This document shows, piece by piece, positions 32,363 to 45,370 of a stretch of 45,370 bases of DNA. The notes below the pieces were generated by a model that made no database searches, was not told where the DNA came from, and was given only the letters and a program-made list of their open reading frames with translations. The position numbers and the translations under genes are program-made. Origin of the DNA: Rhodospirillaceae bacterium Spongia-Bin9 (GTDB lineage Bacteria > Pseudomonadota > Alphaproteobacteria > Bin65); NCBI GenBank assembly GCA_900197615.1, contig FZLR01000014.1:1-45370 (forward strand), given 5' to 3'. The stretch's first letter is position 1. Each line of letters begins with the position of its first letter.

Positions 32363-33722
32363 CCGCCCGAACACCTGCGCCGTTCCCGCCCCCATCCATA
32401 TTGTCGGTGGCGGGCTGGCGGGATGCGAGGCGGCGTGGCAGGCGGCGCAAGCCGGAGCGCCCGTAATCCTGCACGAGATGCGGCCGGAGCGCGGGACGGA
32501 CGCCCACCGGACGGAAACGCTCGCCGAGCTGGTGTGCTCCAACTCCTTCCGTTCCGACGATGCCGAAGCCAACGCCGTCGGCGTGCTGCACGAGGAGATG
32601 CGGCGCTGCGGCTCGCTGATCCTTGCGGCGGCGGACGCCCACAAGGTGCCGGCCGGCGGCGCCCTGGCGGTCGACCGGGAGGGCTTCGCTGGCGCGGTGC
32701 AGCAAAGGCTGGACGCAAATCCGCTGGTGACGGTCCGACGCGAGGAAGTCTCCGGCCTGCCGCCCGCGGACTGGGACACGGTCATCGTCGCGACCGGGCC
32801 GCTGACCTCGCCGGCCCTGGCGCGGGCGATCCTCGACCTGACCGGCGAGGATGCGCTGGCCTTTTTCGACGCCATCGCGCCCATCGTCCACGCCGATTCG
32901 ATCGATGGGAATGTCGCCTGGCGCCAGTCGCGTTACGACAAGCCCGGACCGGGCGGCGACGCCAAGGCGTACATCAACTGCCCGCTGGACGAGTCGCAGT
33001 ACAACGATTTCATCGACGCCCTGATCGCCGGCGACAAGACGGAATTCAAGGACTGGGAGAAGGACACACCCTATTTCGAAGGCTGCCTGCCCATCGAGGT
33101 CATGGCGGAACGCGGCCGGGAGACCCTGCGCTTCGGCCCGATGAAGCCGGTCGGCCTGACCGACCCGCGCACCGGCCGCCGGGCCCATGCCGTGGTGCAA
33201 TTGCGCCAGGACAATGCGCTCGGCACCCTGTTCAACATGGTCGGCTTCCAGACCAAGCTGAAACACGGCGCCCAGACCGCGATCTTCCGGACCGTTCCGG
33301 GGCTGGAGAAGGCGCAATTCGCGCGGCTCGGCGGTATCCACCGCAACACCTTCCTCAACAGCCCTAAGCTGCTGGACGGGGAACTGCGCCTGAAGGCCGA
33401 TCCGCGCCTGCGCTTCGCCGGCCAGATCGCCGGCGTCGAAGGCTATGTCGAAAGCGCCGCCATCGGCCTGCTCGCCGGGCGCATGGCGGTGGCCGAACGG
33501 CGCGGCCTTTCTTTCGCGCCGCCGCCCGGCACCACCGCGCTGGGCGCCCTGCTGCGCCACATCACCGGCGGCGCCGCGGCCGACACATTCCAGCCCATGA
33601 ACGTGAATTTCGGCCTGATGCCGCCGCCGACGCCGACCGACGGCAAGCGCCTGAAGGGCCGGATGCGCAAACAAGCCATGGCACAGCGCGCGCTGGCCGA
33701 TTTCGACCGCTGGCTGGCCTGA
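32352..33722 (+). CDS. trmFO: Methylenetetrahydrofolate--tRNA-(uracil-5-)-methyltransferase TrmFO
   Basis: This 456-residue flavoprotein has the FAD-binding [20 protein letters not shown], the family motif [35 protein letters not shown] (with the Cys implicated in catalysis) and [20 protein letters not shown] near the end. It methylates U54 of tRNAs using methylene-THF and FADH2. The ATG at 32352 lies 11 bp inside the end of the racemase-type gene. Housekeeping trmFO has thus become coupled to a catabolic gene, or the catabolic cluster was inserted directly upstream. Its end converges on the GST-like gene. Confidence 0.95.
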
Positions 33723-33809
33723 GCGGTTGCGCGCCTGGCAATCAATGCAGACATCGATACGGTCAGAGATGAAGAGGAGAGCGCAGAAGTGTGCATGCAT
33801 TCACTCGGC

Positions 33810-34472
33810 TCAAGAGATAATTTCTTTATGGCCGTATTCTCTTCCAAGATAATCGGGTTGAGCGTCGGGCATTGCTTTGCGAAACGCTTCGACTTTCTCG
33901 CAGGATCTGACAATATTCAGAATTCTCCTGAATCGACCGATCGGGATCCCAAACCAGCGTGCATTACCGACGACGGGCACAAGATAGATGTCTGCAATGC
34001 TGGGCTCATCACCGAAACAAAAGGTGGTTTCCGGCGAACGCCTTTTAAGAATTTCTTCGAGCGTCAAAAGACCCTCGGTAATCCAGTGCGTATACCATGC
34101 CATTGACTTGCTCTCGGACCACTGCTCGCGGCTGGTCAGGTAATTGCGCACACGGTGGTTGTGGATGGGATGTATCTCGCAGGCGATGAACTGGGAAAAC
34201 GACCGCGCTGCCAATCTTTCCATCGGGTCTGCGGGAAAAATAGAGGGCGTTGGGTAGGCTTCCTCGATCCACTCCACTATGGCTGTAGATTGGCCGATAA
34301 TGGTCCCGTCTATTTCGATCGCAGGCAATAAGCCTTGTGGATTTTTGCGCCGGTAGGTCTCTGTGCGCATGTCATCGACAGCAATGTAGTCGTAAGGAAT
34401 GTCTTTCAAGTTAAGGGTCGTGCGGACACGCTGGCCCGCTGAATTCCGGTACCGCGTATAGAGCTTTATCAT
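33810..34472 (-). CDS. GST-family protein, maleylpyruvate/maleylacetoacetate isomerase-like
   Basis: This 220-residue protein has a zeta-class-like N-terminus (IKLYTRYRNSAGQRVRTTLN, with Ser11 region as glutathione site), NPQGLLPAIEIDGTIIGQST and AIVEWIEEAYPTPSIFP. The helical domain contains IACEIHPIHNHRVRNYL, typical of maleylacetoacetate/maleylpyruvate isomerases, and FGDEPSIADIYLVPVV. The start at ATG 34472 overlaps the stop of the upstream GntR gene (ATGA), so the two are co-translated; a start 18 bp earlier is possible. Its GC content is visibly lower than in the housekeeping genes. It may isomerise or detoxify an intermediate of the pathway served by the adjacent TRAP-TAXI transporter. 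Confidence 0.85.
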   Translation of the reverse strand: MIKLYTRYRNSAGQRVRTTLNLKDIPYDYIAVDDMRTETYRRKNPQGLLPAIEIDGTIIGQSTAIVEWIEEAYPTPSIFPADPMERLAARSFSQFIACEIHPIHNHRVRNYLTSREQWSESKSMAWYTHWITEGLLTLEEILKRRSPETTFCFGDEPSIADIYLVPVVGNARWFGIPIGRFRRILNIVRSCEKVEAFRKAMPDAQPDYLGREYGHKEIIS

Positions 34473-35209
34473 TTTTCGTCGCCCGACCATTTTCTCAGAG
34501 CAGATCTCAGTCCCTCAAAGTGGTTTTCCATTTCTTTTCGCGCCCGGCCCGGCGACCTTGCGCGAATGGCTTCAGCAATGGGCCGGTGTTCGTCCTGAAG
34601 CCTTTTCCACTCTTTCAGGGGAACGGCCTCCTTAAAATTGAGAAATCGGTATTCATCCAGAGCCTTTATGATAAGTTCCGCCAGATAGGGATTGCAGGAA
34701 GCGTTTGCGATTGCCGTGTGAATTTCCAAGTTGAGATCCTTCTTGTGGGATTCTTCGGCGGGCAGGGCTTCAATCTCCGCAATCGGAAACTCAATTGCGT
34801 GAATCTGATTGTCGTTGGCGTTCACTGCCGCCAGCTCCGCAGCGCGGATTTCCAGGAGGGACCGGACTTCCCAAATTTGAAGTAAGGCCTTGCGGCGATC
34901 GCGCAGGTGGCTGCGGCGAATTTCGCCGATGTCGATTGGCCGGTCGGAGCGCACGAACCGGCCCGCGCCGTGGCGGCTCTCGACGATGCCTTGCGATTCG
35001 AGGACGCGGAACGCCTCGCGGAGAATGGGACGGCTGACCATCCAACGTTCTGCAAGATCGCGTTCGGCAGGAAATCGGTCGCCGACCTGCAAATCTCCCG
35101 AACCGATCAGGCCCATGATCTGATCGACTATGGACTGGTACCGAAGAATCGCCTTGATGGGTGAAAACTTGGCACTGTCCAGCGCCGATCCACCGTCTTC
35201 CTTCGCCAT
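34469..35209 (-). CDS. FadR-subfamily GntR transcriptional regulator
   Basis: This 246-residue protein has an N-terminal winged helix (ILRYQSIVDQIMGLIGSGDL, FPAERDLAERWMVSRPILRE, AFRVLESQGIVESRHGAGRF) and an FCD domain (VRSLLEIRAAELAAV, DLNLEIHTAIANASCNPYLA). I chose the ATG at 35209, which has a GGGAGAG site upstream; the longer open frame (to 35371) adds 54 residues before the DNA-binding domain. It is divergent from the TRAP-TAXI permease and co-directional with the GST gene. It probably represses both directions, perhaps via the palindrome at 35665-35687. Confidence 0.88.
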   Translation of the reverse strand: MAKEDGGSALDSAKFSPIKAILRYQSIVDQIMGLIGSGDLQVGDRFPAERDLAERWMVSRPILREAFRVLESQGIVESRHGAGRFVRSDRPIDIGEIRRSHLRDRRKALLQIWEVRSLLEIRAAELAAVNANDNQIHAIEFPIAEIEALPAEESHKKDLNLEIHTAIANASCNPYLAELIIKALDEYRFLNFKEAVPLKEWKRLQDEHRPIAEAIRARSPGRARKEMENHFEGLRSALRKWSGDEK

Positions 35210-35729
35210 GCTCGTCTCTCCCCTACTATGCCGTGCCGGTGAGGACGGCCGGATGAGAATGGGGGAAATTTCCTGTGCAGACAAATTCATTGTTTGGGCT
35301 GGGCTTACGTGTTCGGGCTGGCCGCCCATTCGGCAGGCGGGAAGCAGCTTCGCGATCCTCGGCCGGCGCACCGCATTATGGCAGCAAGTCGTCAGCGCGG
35401 TCCCTCCCTAAATCGGAGACACGCCGTCATGCGGTCGGCCGGAAAGATGTCTCGGGCTGCCAGGTGCGCTTCGTCCGCTTCGACGTTTCGGAGCGCTCGT
35501 CCCCTGCCGGATCGGGCGGATCCGACCCAGCGCCCCAATTCCGCTCCCGGTTCCGCCCCTGATGGCGCCTGCTGCGCGATGGCGCCACTGCGCTGCGACA
35601 AGCCCGTAGAATTGGGGCTTGGACCGATACGCCTTGAGGACGATCGGACGGGCGGCTACAGTGGATAGGTAAAGTGGGTTTACCAATCCTCCGTTTCCGT
35701 CTATGTTCGTTTCTGCTGGGGTTCGAAGA
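35210..35729. promoter_or_regulatory. Divergent control region with GGTAAA-N5-TTTACC palindrome
   Basis: This gap of about 520 bp carries no gene I can support; several short GC-rich open frames look spurious. The palindrome GGTAAA (35668-35673), GTGGG, TTTACC (35679-35684) extends with two more pairs to 35665-35687. It lies 43-65 bp before the permease ATG at 35730. It is the best candidate operator for the GntR regulator. Confidence 0.4.
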
Positions 35730-37667
35730 ATGACGAACGGAATTGAAGAATGTGAAACTGTCGAGCGGAACCGGATAACGTTGCGGGAAGTGTTTTTCGG
35801 CGATGGTAAATGGCTTGAGCTCGTTACAAGTAATCTCGCCATTTTCTCCTCGATTTTCGCCCTGTATACAGGACTATTCGGTGAGGAAGTGGAACTTATA
35901 CAACGCGGTGTCCACTTCGGATTCTCTGTTGCGTTAATTTATTTTATTACCGGAAAAGATAGCGCTTGGTGGAAGCGCGTTCCTTCACTTCTTGCGGCGT
36001 TGGTTTTGCTGTATAGCGCCGCTTATATAATCTTCGAATACAACAACATAATGGCTCGGGAAGGTGAGCTTACAACACACGAGATTACGCTTGGAGTCAT
36101 TCTGTTTCCGCTGCTTCTGGAGGCTTCGCGCCGTTCCATCGGTTTGACGTTGCCGCTTGTCTCGTTGCTTTTCGTCGCCTACGCCTACTTCGGACCGTTC
36201 CTCCCGTTCGGATTGGGGCATCGAGGCTACGATATAGAAAGACTCGCCTCTCATCTGTTCCTGAGCACCGATGGGATATACGGTACGCCCCTCGGCGTGT
36301 CGGCGACTTTCATCTTCATGTTCGTCTTGTTCGGCGCCTTCCTTCAGGTATCGGGCGCCGGAGAATTCCTGATCAATCTGGCCATCGCGACCACGGGGAG
36401 GAGCCGGGGCGGGCCGGCGAAGATCGCGGTTGTGTCGAGCGCATTCTTCGGGACGATGTCCGGCAGTGCGATTGCAAATGCATCGGCTACCGGCACATTC
36501 ACAATCCCCTTGATGCGCCGAGTCGGATACAAGCCGCATATCGCGGCTTCGTTCGAAAGCCTGGCTTCCCTCGGCGGACAATTGATGCCGCCTATCATGG
36601 GGTCGGCCGCGTTCGTAATGGTCGAGTTTACCCAGATTGCCTATCTCGACATCGCCGCGGCGGCGCTCTTTCCCGGTCTTCTGTTTTTCTTCTCCGTCTT
36701 TGTCATCGTGGACCTGGAAGCTGCGCGCAACAATCTCAGCGGCTTGCCGAAATCGGAGCTGCCGAGCGTCCGCAAGACCCTCAACGAAGGGTGGATGCTG
36801 TTCGTCCCGCTCGTCACGCTCTTCACGCTGCTCTACCTCGGTTATTCGACGTTCATGTCGGCCTTCTGGTCGATTCCGACTGTCATCCTCGTGGCAGCGG
36901 TGAAGCGAGCTACGCGCCTGTCTTTCCCGCAGTTCCTCGAAGCCTTGCGGAAGGGCGGACTCGCCGTCACCAAGATCGCCGTCGCCTGCGCCTGCTCAGG
37001 GATCATCGTCGGGGTGGCGACACTCACGGGACTGGCGGTCGATCTGTCGAACCTGATGATCGAGCTGGCGGGCGGCAGCCTATTCAACCTGCTCCTGCTG
37101 ACCATGGTCGTCTCCATCATCCTGGGAATGGGCCTCCCGACGGTAGCCTGCTACATCCTTCTTGCCGTGCTCGTGGGACCCGCGCTGGAGCAGATGGGAC
37201 TGTCGTTGCTGGCCTCCCATCTGTTCATCTTCTATTTCGGTATTGTTTCAGGGATAACGCCACCGGTCGCCCTGGTTTCGTATGCCGCCGCGGGTGTGGC
37301 CAATACGGACGCGATCAAGACGTCCTGGGCGGCCTGCCGGCTCGGGATTGCCATCTACATTCTGCCTTACGCCTTCGTGTATGTGCCTGAACTTCTCCTG
37401 ATTGGAGAGTGGCACAACGTCGTGATTCGGATCCTCCTTGCCTTCGGATCCCTCTACGTCTTTGTGGCGGCAATCCAAGGCTACCTCTTCGTTCCCCTCA
37501 ACATCGTACACCGCTTGGGCTTTGGGTGCTTAGCGGTCTGTCTGCTGATTGCCAATGTCTGGATCTACCTTCCCGCCGCCGCCATTGCCGTTATTTCCGT
37601 CCTGTTCTTGCGGCGTTCCGTCGGGCGGACCGCCGAACGTACCGCCGATCATTCCGCCCGAAAGTAA
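35730..37667 (+). CDS. TRAP-TAXI transporter fused 4TM/12TM permease
   Basis: This protein of about 645 residues fuses the small (DctQ-like) and large (DctM-like) TRAP permease parts, as in TAXI-type systems. The N-terminal part has helices such as LAIFSSIFALYTGLFG and VPSLLAALVLLYSAAYIIFE. The DctM-like core has GTPLGVSATFIFMFVLFGAF, SSAFFGTMSGSAIANASATG, LASLGGQLMPPIMGSAAFVM, IILGMGLPTVACYILLAVLV and FYFGIVSGITPPVALVSYAA. I placed the start at ATG 35730, which has a G-rich stretch upstream; ATG 35703 is an alternative. The first 400-500 bp are more AT-rich than the rest. The receptor gene follows 80 bp downstream. Confidence 0.92.
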   Translation: MTNGIEECETVERNRITLREVFFGDGKWLELVTSNLAIFSSIFALYTGLFGEEVELIQRGVHFGFSVALIYFITGKDSAWWKRVPSLLAALVLLYSAAYIIFEYNNIMAREGELTTHEITLGVILFPLLLEASRRSIGLTLPLVSLLFVAYAYFGPFLPFGLGHRGYDIERLASHLFLSTDGIYGTPLGVSATFIFMFVLFGAFLQVSGAGEFLINLAIATTGRSRGGPAKIAVVSSAFFGTMSGSAIANASATGTFTIPLMRRVGYKPHIAASFESLASLGGQLMPPIMGSAAFVMVEFTQIAYLDIAAAALFPGLLFFFSVFVIVDLEAARNNLSGLPKSELPSVRKTLNEGWMLFVPLVTLFTLLYLGYSTFMSAFWSIPTVILVAAVKRATRLSFPQFLEALRKGGLAVTKIAVACACSGIIVGVATLTGLAVDLSNLMIELAGGSLFNLLLLTMVVSIILGMGLPTVACYILLAVLVGPALEQMGLSLLASHLFIFYFGIVSGITPPVALVSYAAAGVANTDAIKTSWAACRLGIAIYILPYAFVYVPELLLIGEWHNVVIRILLAFGSLYVFVAAIQGYLFVPLNIVHRLGFGCLAVCLLIANVWIYLPAAAIAVISVLFLRRSVGRTAERTADHSARK

Positions 37668-37677
37668 CGTCCTTCCC

Positions 37678-37724
37678 GAGCCGGAGAGAAATGCCGGCTC
37701 CCAACAAATCGGGTGAAAAACCCG
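37678..37724 (+). other. Two tandem hairpins between permease and receptor genes
   Basis: Hairpin 1 has arms GAGCCGG (37678-37684) and CCGGCTC (37694-37700). Hairpin 2 has arms CGGGT (37710-37714) and ACCCG (37720-37724) around GAAAA. They sit in the 80-bp gap before the receptor's ribosome-binding site. Neither has a T run, so they are more likely RNA-stability or processing elements than terminators. That role is inferred. Confidence 0.5.
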
Positions 37725-37747
37725 GGAAACCAAAGAGGAGATGTCAA

Positions 37748-38746
37748 ATGAAGACCTTAAACAAGACCGTGTCAGCGTCGGTCCTTGCCGGCGCGGTCGC
37801 TCTGGCTGCATCTGCGCCCGCCCTTGCGGAGACCTATGTATCTATCGGAACGGCAAAAGCGACCGGTAGCTGGTATCCGCTGGGCGCCGCACTCTCGACA
37901 GTCGTGAGCAAGCATGCAGCAGGCGTTACGGCGAAAGTGGAATCGACCAAAGGCGGCATGGCGAACGTCCATCTTCTGGCCAAAAAGCAGGTGGATATAG
38001 CCTTCGTCCCGCCTTGGGCCATCGCAGACGCCAGAAAGGGCGCCGGAGCTTATAAGGGCAAGAAGGGCTTCCCGGTGAAGGTGTCGGGCTGGCTCGGCTT
38101 TGCGCCGAATTATCTGACGATCATGGTCCCGGCGGACAGCGCTATCAAATCCGTGAACGACCTGCGCGGAAAGCGGGTCAATATGGGCGCGCCGGGAACC
38201 TTCAACCGGCCCATCCTCAGGATGGTTCTGAACGAGCAGGGCATTGGCGTGAAGGATGTCAAGGCGTTCGATATCGCCCTTGGGCCTGCCGTCAATCGGC
38301 TGAAGAACCGCCAATTGGACGTCGTCTGGTGGTGGGCGGCGACCCCGGCATCGGCGTTTACCGATGCGTCCGTCTCCCTGAATACCCGCCTCGTCGGATT
38401 GAGCCCGGCAACTGTCACGCAGCTTACGGGAAAATATTCCTGGTTCAGCGCAGGAGCCATTGCAGCCGGTATCTATAAGGGCACCGCACAAAAAACTCCG
38501 ACGGTCTTCACGAAGATCAGCGCGGCCATGTTGAGCTCGATACCGGACGAAGTCGCCTACAAGATGACCAAGGCGGTCTTTGAAAATCTTGACGAGCTGG
38601 GTGCGATCCATCCGGTCTTCAAGAAACTTTCGAAGATTAACGTACTCGAAGGCCTGTCCATTCCGATCCATCCCGGAGCTGAAAAATACTTCCGGGAAGT
38701 CGGTGTACCCGGGCTCGATGCTTTCGTGAAAAAAATGGCCCAATAA
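37748..38746 (+). CDS. TAXI-family TRAP transporter solute receptor
   Basis: This 332-residue protein has a signal peptide (TVSASVLAGAVALAASAPAL, cleavage near ALA-ET). TAXI-family features follow: YVSIGTAKATGSWYPLGAAL, ESTKGGMANVHLLAKKQVDI, DLRGKRVNMGAPGT and VFENLDELGAIHPVFKKLS. It should deliver an unknown small solute, typically a dicarboxylate or amino acid for this family, to the fused permease encoded upstream. An AGAGGAG ribosome-binding site (37734-37740) precedes the ATG. The gene is separated from the permease by two RNA hairpins, which may let it be expressed more strongly, as is common for receptors. Confidence 0.92.
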   Translation: MKTLNKTVSASVLAGAVALAASAPALAETYVSIGTAKATGSWYPLGAALSTVVSKHAAGVTAKVESTKGGMANVHLLAKKQVDIAFVPPWAIADARKGAGAYKGKKGFPVKVSGWLGFAPNYLTIMVPADSAIKSVNDLRGKRVNMGAPGTFNRPILRMVLNEQGIGVKDVKAFDIALGPAVNRLKNRQLDVVWWWAATPASAFTDASVSLNTRLVGLSPATVTQLTGKYSWFSAGAIAAGIYKGTAQKTPTVFTKISAAMLSSIPDEVAYKMTKAVFENLDELGAIHPVFKKLSKINVLEGLSIPIHPGAEKYFREVGVPGLDAFVKKMAQ

Positions 38747-38841
38747 AGGGAAGGATGCGGCCCGCGCCTGTTCCCAGCGCTGGCCGCATCCACCGGCCGT
38801 TTCGGAGGCGGACGAAAATTGGTTCGAAGGAATCCCGACCG

Positions 38842-39621
38842 ATGGTTACAAAGACAAAATCGACTCAGGCAGAAATCGAAAAAATGGTCAAGATATTGGG
38901 AAAAATGGAATTTCCCCAATGGACGGCGCGCCAGCGCCTGGCTATCGGTTGCCGAATTCTCGCGGACAACGGACACGGATCCGGTCTTGCCGGCCAATTC
39001 ACGGCTCGTGGGGAGGAACCGGACACCATGTGGACCCTGCCCTACGGAATGGGATTCGAGGAAGCGACGGCATCGGCCTACTTGCTGGTCGACCGCGATC
39101 TAAAAGTCCTGGAAGGATCGGGTACACCGAACATGGCGAACCGCTTTCACCTTCATGTCTACCGCGAACGCCCGGATGCCATGGCGCTCGTTCATACGCA
39201 CCCGCCATACAGTTCGGCGCTCTCGATGATTGGCGAGCCGCTGCACGTCTCACATATGGATACGGCGATGTTCTACGACGACGTGGCCTATCTGCCGACC
39301 TGGCCGGGGGTTCCCTTCGGGGATGAGGAGGGCGAGATCATCTCCAACGCGATCGGCGACAAGAACGCCATACTCCTGGCCCACCACGGCCAAATGTGCG
39401 CCGCACCGTCGATCGAGGCGGCCTGCGTCATGGCGGTCTTTATCGAACACGCGGCGCGGCTCCAGCTCCTCGCCATGGCGGCAGGAGAAATCAGGGATAT
39501 CGAACCAAAACTGGGCAAGGAGGCCCACGACTGGCGCCATGCACCGGAAGCCATGGCCGTAACCTTCCACTACTTCGCCCGGCTCGCCCTCCAGAAACAT
39601 ACTGACGCGGTATTCCAATGA
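38842..39621 (+). CDS. Class II aldolase/adducin family protein
   Basis: This 259-residue protein has the fuculose-aldolase-like zinc site: H103 (RFHLHVYRERPD), H118 and H120 (LVHTHPPYSSALS) and H181 (ILLAHHGQM). The early segment LADNGHGSGLAGQFTARG matches the family's G-x-G-S/H-R phosphate-site region, but with G-Q-F-T where sugar-phosphate aldolases usually have conserved binding residues. It may therefore act on a non-phosphorylated substrate or as a decarboxylase. It lies 95 bp after the TAXI receptor on the same strand and probably breaks down the imported compound. The exact reaction is unknown. Confidence 0.88.
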   Translation: MVTKTKSTQAEIEKMVKILGKMEFPQWTARQRLAIGCRILADNGHGSGLAGQFTARGEEPDTMWTLPYGMGFEEATASAYLLVDRDLKVLEGSGTPNMANRFHLHVYRERPDAMALVHTHPPYSSALSMIGEPLHVSHMDTAMFYDDVAYLPTWPGVPFGDEEGEIISNAIGDKNAILLAHHGQMCAAPSIEAACVMAVFIEHAARLQLLAMAAGEIRDIEPKLGKEAHDWRHAPEAMAVTFHYFARLALQKHTDAVFQ

Positions 39622-39790
39622 GGACAGGGGCAAAACCGCAGCTTTTCGATGCTGGCGCCGACCATGATCCGGGCTTTAGCGAGGGCCGTGTATGGCAGAC
39701 CCTTCCCAAAGCCGCCGCCAGCCGATAATCCCTGTGCGGTGGCGCGCCGCAAGGTCCGCGGCGCAGCCTGCCGCAAACGGGAGCCGGCCC

Positions 39791-40921
39791 ATGCCCGCCG
39801 AAGCCGTAACGGTCGAAACCTTCGATTACCGCCACAGCCCGCTGCCGGTGCGCGAAGGCCTGGTGGCCTCGCAGCGGCGCGCCTGGGCAAGGCTGGCCGA
39901 ACCGGGCGAATGGTGGCCGGCCGCCGTTCGCATCGCGATTGCCGAGGAGACCCGCGCGGCGACCGCCTGCGCCTTCTGCGCCGAACGCAAGGCGGCGCTC
40001 TCGCCCTACGCCGTCAGCGGCCGGCACACCGCGGCGACCGTCCTGCCGGACGTTCTGGTCGACACCGTCCACCGCATCCGCACCGATCCGGAGCGCCTGA
40101 CCCGCCGTTTCTACGATACGGCGCTCGCCGCCGGCGGACTGAGCGATGCGGAATATGCCGAGACGGTCGCCATCGTCGCCACGGTCGTCGCCATCGATAC
40201 CTTCTGCGACGCCATGGGGCTGCCGCGCCACGCGCTGCCCGAACCGGTTGCCGGCGAACCGCGCCGGCGGCGTCCACCCGGCGCAAAGCCGGGGTTGGCC
40301 TGGATCGCAACGGTCGCGCCTGAGGACGTGACGGAAGGCGAGGCCGGTATGTACGATGGGCTGGCCGGCGTGAACATCCACCGGGCGCTGTCGCTGGTGC
40401 CGGCGGAAGTCGTCGGGTTCTTCGATCTGGACGCCGAGCACTACCTGCCCGATGCGCTGCTGCGCGATTTCGGCACCGAACACCGCGCGCTCACCCATGC
40501 CCAGATCGAGTTTCTGGCGGCGCGGGTCTCGGCGATCAACCAGTGCGTCTACTGAACCACCAGCCACGCGGTGCTGCTCCGTGGGAGCGGCGAACATACC
40601 GGCGACGCCTACGATCTGAGCGCCATCGTCGATGACCGCGGCACCGGCGGCGGCGTCGCTGCGGCGGCGGCGCTGACCGGCTACGCCAACGCTTTCTTCG
40701 ACGATGAAGCCGACTTCGCCGCGGCGCGCGACCGGCTGCACGCGGAAATCGGCGGCGAAGCGCTGGTCGACGCCGCCGGGGTGCTCGCCATCTTCAATGC
40801 CGTGGTGCGGATCGCCGATTCCACCGGCATCCCGCTGGAGGACCAGAAGGCCGAAATGTCGGCCGATTTCCGGGACGCGCTGGGCATCGGCGACTATCCG
40901 TCGACAGAAGGCAAGTTCTGA
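39791..40921 (+). CDS. Predicted selenoprotein: two-domain AhpD/carboxymuconolactone-decarboxylase-like (in-frame TGA = Sec at 40553-40555)
   Basis: Read straight through the TGA at 40553-40555, the frame gives a 376-residue protein. The N-terminal AhpD-like half has C60-A-F-C63 (TACAFCAERK). The C-terminal half has C252-V-Y-[TGA]-T-T-S-H259, which is the AhpD redox motif CxxC-x3-H with the TGA exactly at the second Cys. Coding quality, frame and homology-like character continue to TGA 40919-40921 (ending STEGKF). A hairpin fitting the bacterial SECIS model follows (40572-40592). AhpD-like CxxU selenoproteins are known in bacteria. Predicted role: a selenol-based peroxidase or thiol oxidoreductase. 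The ATG at 39791 has a GGGAG site; an in-frame ATG at 39692 is an alternative. If not Sec, it is a nonsense-mutated gene. Confidence 0.8.
40572..40592 (+). promoter_or_regulatory. Bacterial SECIS-like hairpin
   Basis: Arms GCTGCTCC (40573-40580) and GGAGCGGC (40584-40591) pair fully with one G-U. One more T-G wobble at 40572/40592 extends the stem around the loop GTG (40581-40583). The apical loop starts 25 nt after the TGA and begins with G. Bacterial SECIS models expect a 16-37 nt distance and a small loop with a G in its first two bases. It lies inside coding sequence, as bacterial SECIS elements do. Confidence 0.7.
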
Positions 40922-40927
40922 CGCCGC

Positions 40928-40960
40928 ACCGCCCGGCCGCCGATCGGCCGGGGCGGTTTA
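40928..40960 (+). terminator. Rho-independent terminator after the selenoprotein gene
   Basis: ACCGCCCGGCCG (40928-40939) pairs with CGGCCGGGGCGGT (40945-40957), with one bulged G and a 5-nt loop, followed by TTTA. It begins 6 nt after the second TGA (40919-40921). This fits the gene truly ending there and not at the internal TGA. Confidence 0.65.
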
Positions 40961-43930: not shown

Positions 43931-45370
43931 ACCATATATAGCGTTGTCGGGGAGGCCATGCCCCTATATTTGCGATTGACGCCCTGAGAGTGCTTTGTAG
44001 TGCCAGGAAATGGTGTTATTGTCATAATTTCCCTTGACCCCACTACCAAAGCCGACATATCTGAACCCGCCACGACCAAAACGTGCCGGGCGACATGTTC
44101 ATCAGGGCAACCAAGACCCACACCACCGAAGGCAAGCCGGTCCGCAGCCATCGCCTCGTGCTCTCGCAGCGCATCGGCGACAAGGTCAGGCAGCGCACGC
44201 TTCTCAACCTCGGCACCGACTATCCGGTGCCGAAGGAGAAATGGCGCGAAGTTGCCGGACTCGCCGAGGCGCTGCTCAACGGCCGCCCGCCCCTGCTCGA
44301 AGCCGCGCCGGACGTGCAGGCCGCAGCCGAGGACATCGTCGCCAAGCTCAGGGCCAGGGGGTTCCGCGTCGAGGCGATGCAGGAAGAGGCGCGCAAGCCT
44401 GAAGTCGCCACCGTCGACCTCGATACCCTGGAGCACGAGAACCCGCGCACCGTCGGCTGCGAGCGCCTGTGCCTCAAGGCCCTCGACGATCTCGGCTTCG
44501 CCGACATCCTCCACGACCTGGGGATCAAGGGCCGCGAAGGGCGCATCGCCAGCGCGCTGGTCGTCGCCAGGATGGTCCATCCCGCCAGCGAGCGTGAGAC
44601 CAGCCGCTGGCTGCGCCGCGACAGCGCGACCGCCGAGCTTCTTGAGCTGGAAGGCGACCGCAAGGCGCTGCGGCGCAAGACGCTCTACCGCATCGGCGAC
44701 CTGCTCTGGCGCCACCGGGCTGCCATCCAGCGGAAGCTGTTCAACCGTGAGCGCGCACTGCTCGACCTGCCCGAAACGATCGCCTTTTACGATCTCACCA
44801 ATGTCCACTATCACGGCCACACCCACGGCGAGCTTCCCCGCTTCGGGCGCTCCAAGCAGAAGCGCGACGACTGTCCGCTGATCACGCTTGCGCTGGCGCT
44901 CGACGGCGCGGGCTTCCCACGCAGTTGCGAGATCCTGCCGGGCAACGTGAGCGAGCCGGGCACGCTGGAGGATGCGCTGGCCCGGCTCGAGGCGGTGTGC
45001 GGCGGCACGGCGGCGAAGCCCACGGTGGTCATGGACGCGGGCATCGCCACGGAGGAGAACATCGTCTGGCTGGGCGAGCAGGGCTACGACTGGATCGCGG
45101 TGAGCCGCGGCGCCAGGCCGCCGCTGCCCGAGGGCGGGCCCGAGGCTCTGCTGATCACCAGCGCGCGCCACGAGGTGCGCGCCTGGCGCCTCGCAAGCGA
45201 GGACGGCGAGGCGCGGCTCTACGTCGTCAGCGAGGGCAAGAAGAAGGCAGAGAACGCGATTATCGGCCTGCGGAGGAACCGCTTCGAGGCGGCGCTGGAA
45301 AAGCTCCACGGCGGCCTCCCGGTCAAGGGCCGCCTCAAGCGCTACGACAGGGTGCTGGAGAGCATAGGCC
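43931..45370 (+). mobile_element. IS1634-family-like insertion sequence (left part; right end outside window)
   Basis: The element is recognised by its transposase (44095 onward) and its position against the broken amidohydrolase. Its left boundary lies between about 43882 and 44094; I could not identify the terminal inverted repeat, since the other end is not visible. A nested inverted repeat (GTAGTG 43997-44002 with CACTAC 44041-44046, and GGAAAT 44006-44011 with ATTTCC 44027-44032) lies before the transposase and may be regulatory or part of the end. Confidence 0.6.
44095..45370 (+). CDS. IS1634-like DDE transposase (partial, runs off the end)
   Basis: From ATG 44095 the frame is open to the window end, about 425 residues without a stop. 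It begins MFIRATKTHTTEGKPVRSHR. The first catalytic Asp is probably in TIAFYDLTNVHYHGHTHGEL. After it come FGRSKQKRDDCPLITLALAL, RSCEILPGNVSEPGTLEDAL and a second Asp in PTVVMDAGIATEENIVWLGE. The catalytic Glu would lie past the window. These motifs fit the IS1634 group of IS4-related DDE transposases. An antisense open frame over the same DNA is not credible as a gene. The gene looks intact as far as visible. Confidence 0.8.
   Translation, partial: MFIRATKTHTTEGKPVRSHRLVLSQRIGDKVRQRTLLNLGTDYPVPKEKWREVAGLAEALLNGRPPLLEAAPDVQAAAEDIVAKLRARGFRVEAMQEEARKPEVATVDLDTLEHENPRTVGCERLCLKALDDLGFADILHDLGIKGREGRIASALVVARMVHPASERETSRWLRRDSATAELLELEGDRKALRRKTLYRIGDLLWRHRAAIQRKLFNRERALLDLPETIAFYDLTNVHYHGHTHGELPRFGRSKQKRDDCPLITLALALDGAGFPRSCEILPGNVSEPGTLEDALARLEAVCGGTAAKPTVVMDAGIATEENIVWLGEQGYDWIAVSRGARPPLPEGGPEALLITSARHEVRAWRLASEDGEARLYVVSEGKKKAENAIIGLRRNRFEAALEKLHGGLPVKGRLKRYDRVLESIG

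Follow-up and report, generated by a model that had tools for sequence, protein, structure and literature searches.

The window analysed here, a 45,370-nt stretch of contig FZLR01000014.1 from Rhodospirillaceae bacterium Spongia-Bin9, carries on its forward strand a frame (39791-40921) that contains a single internal stop, TGA 40553-40555, ahead of the terminal TGA at 40919-40921. This raises the question whether the internal TGA ends a gene, marks a broken one or is decoded as an amino acid. The codon almost certainly encodes selenocysteine (Sec), and we hold with great confidence that the frame is an intact selenoprotein gene of family NF041238, in which Sec255 is inserted under the direction of SelB and a hairpin, and whose C-terminal half carries an AhpD-type site with peroxide or disulfide reduction as its likeliest chemistry. 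A preliminary description of this DNA had proposed a Sec-containing AhpD-like protein, and had read both the lone TGA and the residues C-V-Y-U-T-T-S-H around it correctly; the proposal itself is supported by the presence of selA, selB, selC and selD, by the TGA in 50 of 50 members, by constraint on the hairpin and by co-occurrence with tRNA-Sec. With the TGA read as Sec, the gene product has 376 residues, and its features are as follows.

39791..40921, + strand: selenoprotein gene, NF041238 (AhpD_rel_CFYUT)
39779..39783, + strand: GGGAG, likely ribosome-binding site for ATG 39791, as read in the sequence
39968..39979, + strand: CxxC of the N-terminal half (C60-A-F-C63), found in 44 of 50 members; Lys67 after it takes the place of the AhpD His
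40508..40510, + strand: Glu240, the AhpD proton-relay position, 12 residues before Cys252; invariant in 50 members
40544..40567, + strand: active-site motif C252-V-Y-U255-T-T-S-H259; C252, U255, T256 and H259 invariant in 50 members
40553..40555, + strand: predicted Sec255, in-frame TGA
40572..40592, + strand: bacterial SECIS element 16 nt beyond the TGA, a hairpin with loop GTG on a 9-bp stem (RNAfold, codon constraint, covariation)

The ATG at 39791 is the likely start, since GGGAG lies 7 nt upstream of it and the similarity in nucleotide sequence shared with the nearest orthologues sets in at about 39770; the upstream ATG at 39692 lies outside that similarity. Past the second stop, where a terminator had been suggested, there is a G+C-rich inverted repeat (about 40928-40956) followed only by TTT, and no intrinsic terminator passed the terminator scan there, so this suggestion found no support.

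A profile search of the protein, with U entered as C, matched NF041238 almost from end to end (450 bits against a cut-off of 175, 6.5e-135, residues 20-370, model positions 1-356 of 357), and the CVYUT motif with its in-frame TGA lies at 40544-40558. The family is named AhpD_rel_CFYUT, "alkylhydroperoxidase-related (seleno)protein". The general AhpD models matched only weakly across the second half (the Pfam CMD domain covers residues 231-295), and the score against TIGR00777 (AhpD), 17.9 bits with a cut-off of 191.95, is below threshold, so the protein is AhpD-related rather than AhpD. The family was first listed in the 2005 Sargasso Sea selenoproteome as "hypothetical protein 1", with a predicted SECIS element, a suggested redox role and a small count of Cys homologues (PMC1088965), and it appears in a 2026 review as "AhpD-related protein (hypothetical protein 1, Sargasso Sea metagenome)" with the motif CxxU (PMC13188914). 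The protein thus falls in a catalogued family already predicted to contain Sec, and a claim of novelty for it is not borne out; the window gene is a good new example. In the literature on NF041238 we found no substrate and no characterised member.

Homologues were collected from 385 genomes of the class at the NF041238 cut-off, which gave 50 genes in 27 genomes. Each of the 50 has exactly one internal TGA, always in the Sec column of the alignment, with C-x-x ahead of it and T-x-x-H behind; the same was true of 30 of 30 among the members listed from the order sample and of all five close relatives in a single-query contig scan (four alphaproteobacterial, one labelled Immundisolibacterales). 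No Cys form of NF041238 was found among the 385 class genomes, in which the next matches scored below 67 bits and were other CMD proteins. A sample of 398 genomes of the phylum, searched at E 1e-40, gave no member beyond the window's own genome; distribution outside the class is poorly sampled by it, so Cys forms may exist there. A protein search of plasmids gave no match. In codon alignments with six orthologues, dN ranged over 0.03-0.29 and dS over 0.23-2.1 before as well as after the TGA, and third-position differences dominate downstream of it too, from which we take the part after the TGA to be functional coding sequence.

The Sec machinery, for which a search of the genome had been recommended, was recovered completely: selA (548.7 bits), selB (411.9 bits), a tRNA-Sec gene (anticodon UCA, 74.2 bits; also called by ARAGORN) and selD form one cluster of about 6 kb on another contig of the same genome (C157, about 69.4-75.0 kb). 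The selD domain is the end of a long frame whose first part is NADH dehydrogenase-like; Ndh-SelD fusions have been described (PMC2398784). A tRNA-Sec gene was detected in 26 of the 27 genomes that carry an NF041238 member, compared with 2 of 27 class genomes chosen for comparison that carry none. The one genome in which it went undetected (G366, an assembly of 240 contigs) has TGA-containing members and selA, and the missing tRNA-Sec there is probably an assembly gap.

The hairpin described earlier, a 9-bp stem with a 3-nt loop beginning in G, was found again at 40572-40592, where the strands TGCTGCTCC (40572-40580) and GGAGCGGCG (40584-40592) enclose the loop GTG (40581-40583) and pairing begins 17 nt past the TGA. 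RNAfold returned precisely this stem with short flanks and eight of its nine pairs with longer ones. The folding energy of the single sequence was tried as proof of a SECIS element and is insufficient: against shuffled sequences, three cuts gave z-scores of -1.07, -1.72 and +0.19, which are non-significant in such GC-rich DNA, so that a chance hairpin is excluded only through comparative data. An Rfam scan of the window returned no family at threshold, a result that is no argument against a bacterial SECIS element.

Across the family, the 48 nt from the TGA onward align without gaps in 48 distinct sequences, and the spacing between TGA and hairpin is gap-free among the 50 class members. We compared how often pairs of sequences with the same amino acid share its codon with the expectation from family codon usage. 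Codon identity was far above expectation at codons 257-258 and 262-267 (Leu263, 1.00 against 0.29 expected; Ser266, 0.70 against 0.24), the ten seven-codon windows with the strongest constraint, out of 367, all have their first codon among 256-265, and synonymous variation falls sharply exactly across the hairpin codons. Such constraint is expected of an overlapping RNA element and is not predicted by selection on the protein alone. In the family alignment standard pairs make up 74% of cells at the stem positions, and 38-56% when the stem is slid; the covariation score is 0.163, compared with 0.055-0.086 for the slid stems. Variation is almost absent from the core pairs (24-36 to 27-33) and present in the outer ones, and five pairs have changed on both sides; the two outer pairs and the innermost one are often unpaired across the family, leaving a conserved core of four pairs with partly covarying neighbours. 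The element thus has what is looked for in bacterial selenoprotein genes, a conserved hairpin with a G in its apical loop close downstream of the UGA.

Two other readings of the TGA must be weighed against Sec. The genome is a draft assembly, where one wrongly called base could create a nonsense codon, and ordinary gene callers would split the frame, as the preliminary description had foreseen and as the open-reading-frame list, which gives two ORFs, bears out; the locus could accordingly be a pseudogene, or a miscalled TGC or TGT, with the downstream part an orphan fragment. This is exceedingly improbable. Across 27 genomes the same TGA stands in the same column in all 50 members, among them two paralogues that share a genome with the window gene, and its recurrence in independent genomes and in these paralogues excludes a sequencing error; downstream of the TGA the ratio of dN to dS is well below 1 (0.09/0.53 against the orthologue L024), and the presence of selA, selB, selC and selD also speaks against a dead or misread gene. 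Readthrough of the TGA as another amino acid, such as Trp, by near-cognate suppression or a change of code, would likewise yield the long frame. It too is very improbable, given that TGA also terminates genes here (at 40919, and at 39619-39621 in the aldolase gene), that a tRNA-Sec is encoded, that in the AhpD motif this column belongs to the second Cys and that a SECIS element follows. For Sec insertion, we envisage that SelB with Sec-tRNA(UCA) would bind the hairpin 40572-40592 downstream of the UGA and that Sec would be placed at residue 255, translation running on to 40918; we infer this decoding from the machinery and the hairpin, both of which are present.

An AlphaFold model built from the 50-sequence alignment (mean pLDDT 94.8) suggests a product of two fused halves of AhpD/CMD type. 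Its C-terminal half resembles AhpD-type structures (6k40, Z 13.3), and residues 8-348 superpose on residues 74-477 of human Sestrin2 (Z 17.1, 239 residues, rmsd 3.3, 11% identity), itself a two-fold pseudo-symmetric fusion of AhpD-like halves (PMC4674687). The AhpD motif E-x11-C-x-x-C-x3-H occurs in the C-terminal half with U replacing the second C, and would there form a complete AhpD-type site of E240, C252-x-x-U255 and H259. The preliminary description had placed a CxxC in the first half and a CxxU in the second; both are present in the window protein (the former as C60 and C63), but the N-terminal half is unlikely to be a second complete AhpD site, as judged from the residues, because its CxxC is missing in 6 of the 50 members and Lys rather than His stands at +4. 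Six members (L033, L034, L035, L066, L067 and L068) form a clade without the N-terminal CxxC region, in which the CxxU and a variant hairpin are kept. Aligned as sequence profiles, the two halves match weakly, CxxC on CxxU (probability 23%, P 9e-4). The N-terminal half would then be a degenerate copy whose CxxC, where present, may serve as an auxiliary dithiol relay, with the chemistry presumably carried out by the C-terminal site.

The window's own genome has two further NF041238 members on other contigs (C215 and C111), both with the same TGA. In the tree the window gene falls in a clade of seven together with genes from its own genus and from another family, apart from both paralogue clades. 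Ten genomes have a paralogue no more than about 4 kb away from selC, the tRNA-Sec gene, and these paralogues come from two or more branches of the tree (G007 C741, G091 C73, G123 C19, G227 C550, G185 C80, G279 C50, G357 C22, G744 C90, G745 C15 and G747 C84), and in G747 the sel genes have members to either side of them. The exclusive use of Sec among the members seen, and the position of a paralogue next to selC in these ten genomes, have possibly gone unremarked before. The window copy is not near sel genes. Its upstream neighbourhood (33720-39770) encodes a GST, a GntR/FCD regulator, a TRAP DctM permease, an NMT1-like binding protein and a class II aldolase. At two orthologous loci, L074 and L020, the selenoprotein gene directly follows the counterpart of the window's gene at 32.4-33.7 kb, so that the segment is most plausibly an insertion acquired in the window's lineage rather than a functional partner; a functional link to the TRAP and aldolase neighbours was rejected, the insertion being absent from the examined orthologues except L075. 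Sequence identity to L075 is 98-99.7% for the products of the TRAP, binding-protein and aldolase genes but only 88% for the adjacent selenoprotein, a disparity that suggests recent horizontal spread or recombination of the segment. A DDE_Tnp_1-type transposase gene (44083-45369) runs past the window end and is accompanied by a long antisense frame.

As to function, the motif and the predicted fold, a tandem AhpD arrangement like that of Sestrin2, point most probably to a peroxidase or reductase of the thiol or selenol type; the most likely chemistry would be reduction of a peroxide or disulfide in which Cys252 and Sec255 form a selenenylsulfide and Glu and His relay protons. The protein, with Sec inserted, might instead serve in selenium handling or another thiol-redox task, such as delivering or sensing reduced selenium. 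The paralogues within about 4 kb of selC in ten genomes point in this direction, as does a family whose observed members all use Sec and for which no characterised member was found, but the window copy lies away from the sel genes and the AhpD catalytic residues are all kept; we regard this reading as unlikely. A bolder view, which we put forward only as a speculation and consider quite doubtful, is that NF041238 has obligate Sec and the build of a Sestrin-like fused AhpD dimer, and that it expanded in alphaproteobacteria to several copies in each genome, with some branches tied to the sel locus, and that it may be a CxxC self-relaying selenoperoxidase or a selenium-handling enzyme; if the self-relay were true, the N-terminal CxxC would re-reduce the Cys-Sec pair within the same chain. 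The analysis confirms a functional recoded gene where ordinary annotation would split it, and supplies 50 aligned members with a measured SECIS signature at the nucleotide level; the all-Sec membership, the selC-adjacent paralogue branches and the Sestrin-like fold are leads toward the substrate of the family.

The window protein shares the fold of its C-terminal half and the motif E-x11-C-x-x-[C/U]-x3-H with single-domain AhpD-like proteins (TIGR01926; 6k40, 2prr, 2oyo and 3c1l) and with M. tuberculosis AhpD (1knc). It differs from the single-domain proteins in having Sec for the second Cys and an extra AhpD-like half in front, and its TIGR01926 score (43 bits) is below the cut-off. With Sestrin2 (5dj4, 5t0n) and with the prokaryotic fused AhpD dimers that have been described as resembling Sestrin, in an account that does not mention selenocysteine (PMC11429811), it has in common two AhpD-like halves per chain. 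The layout of Sestrin, with its redox Cys in the N-terminal half only and a C-terminal half devoid of AhpD catalytic residues (PMC4674687), is not that of the window protein, whose active site lies in the C-terminal half; Sestrin2 has one Cys with Leu replacing the second, whereas the window protein has Sec there. With NF041238 it agrees over the full length, in the place of the CxxU and in the SECIS element downstream, and CVYUTTSH here, against the CFYUT of the family name, is no essential difference.
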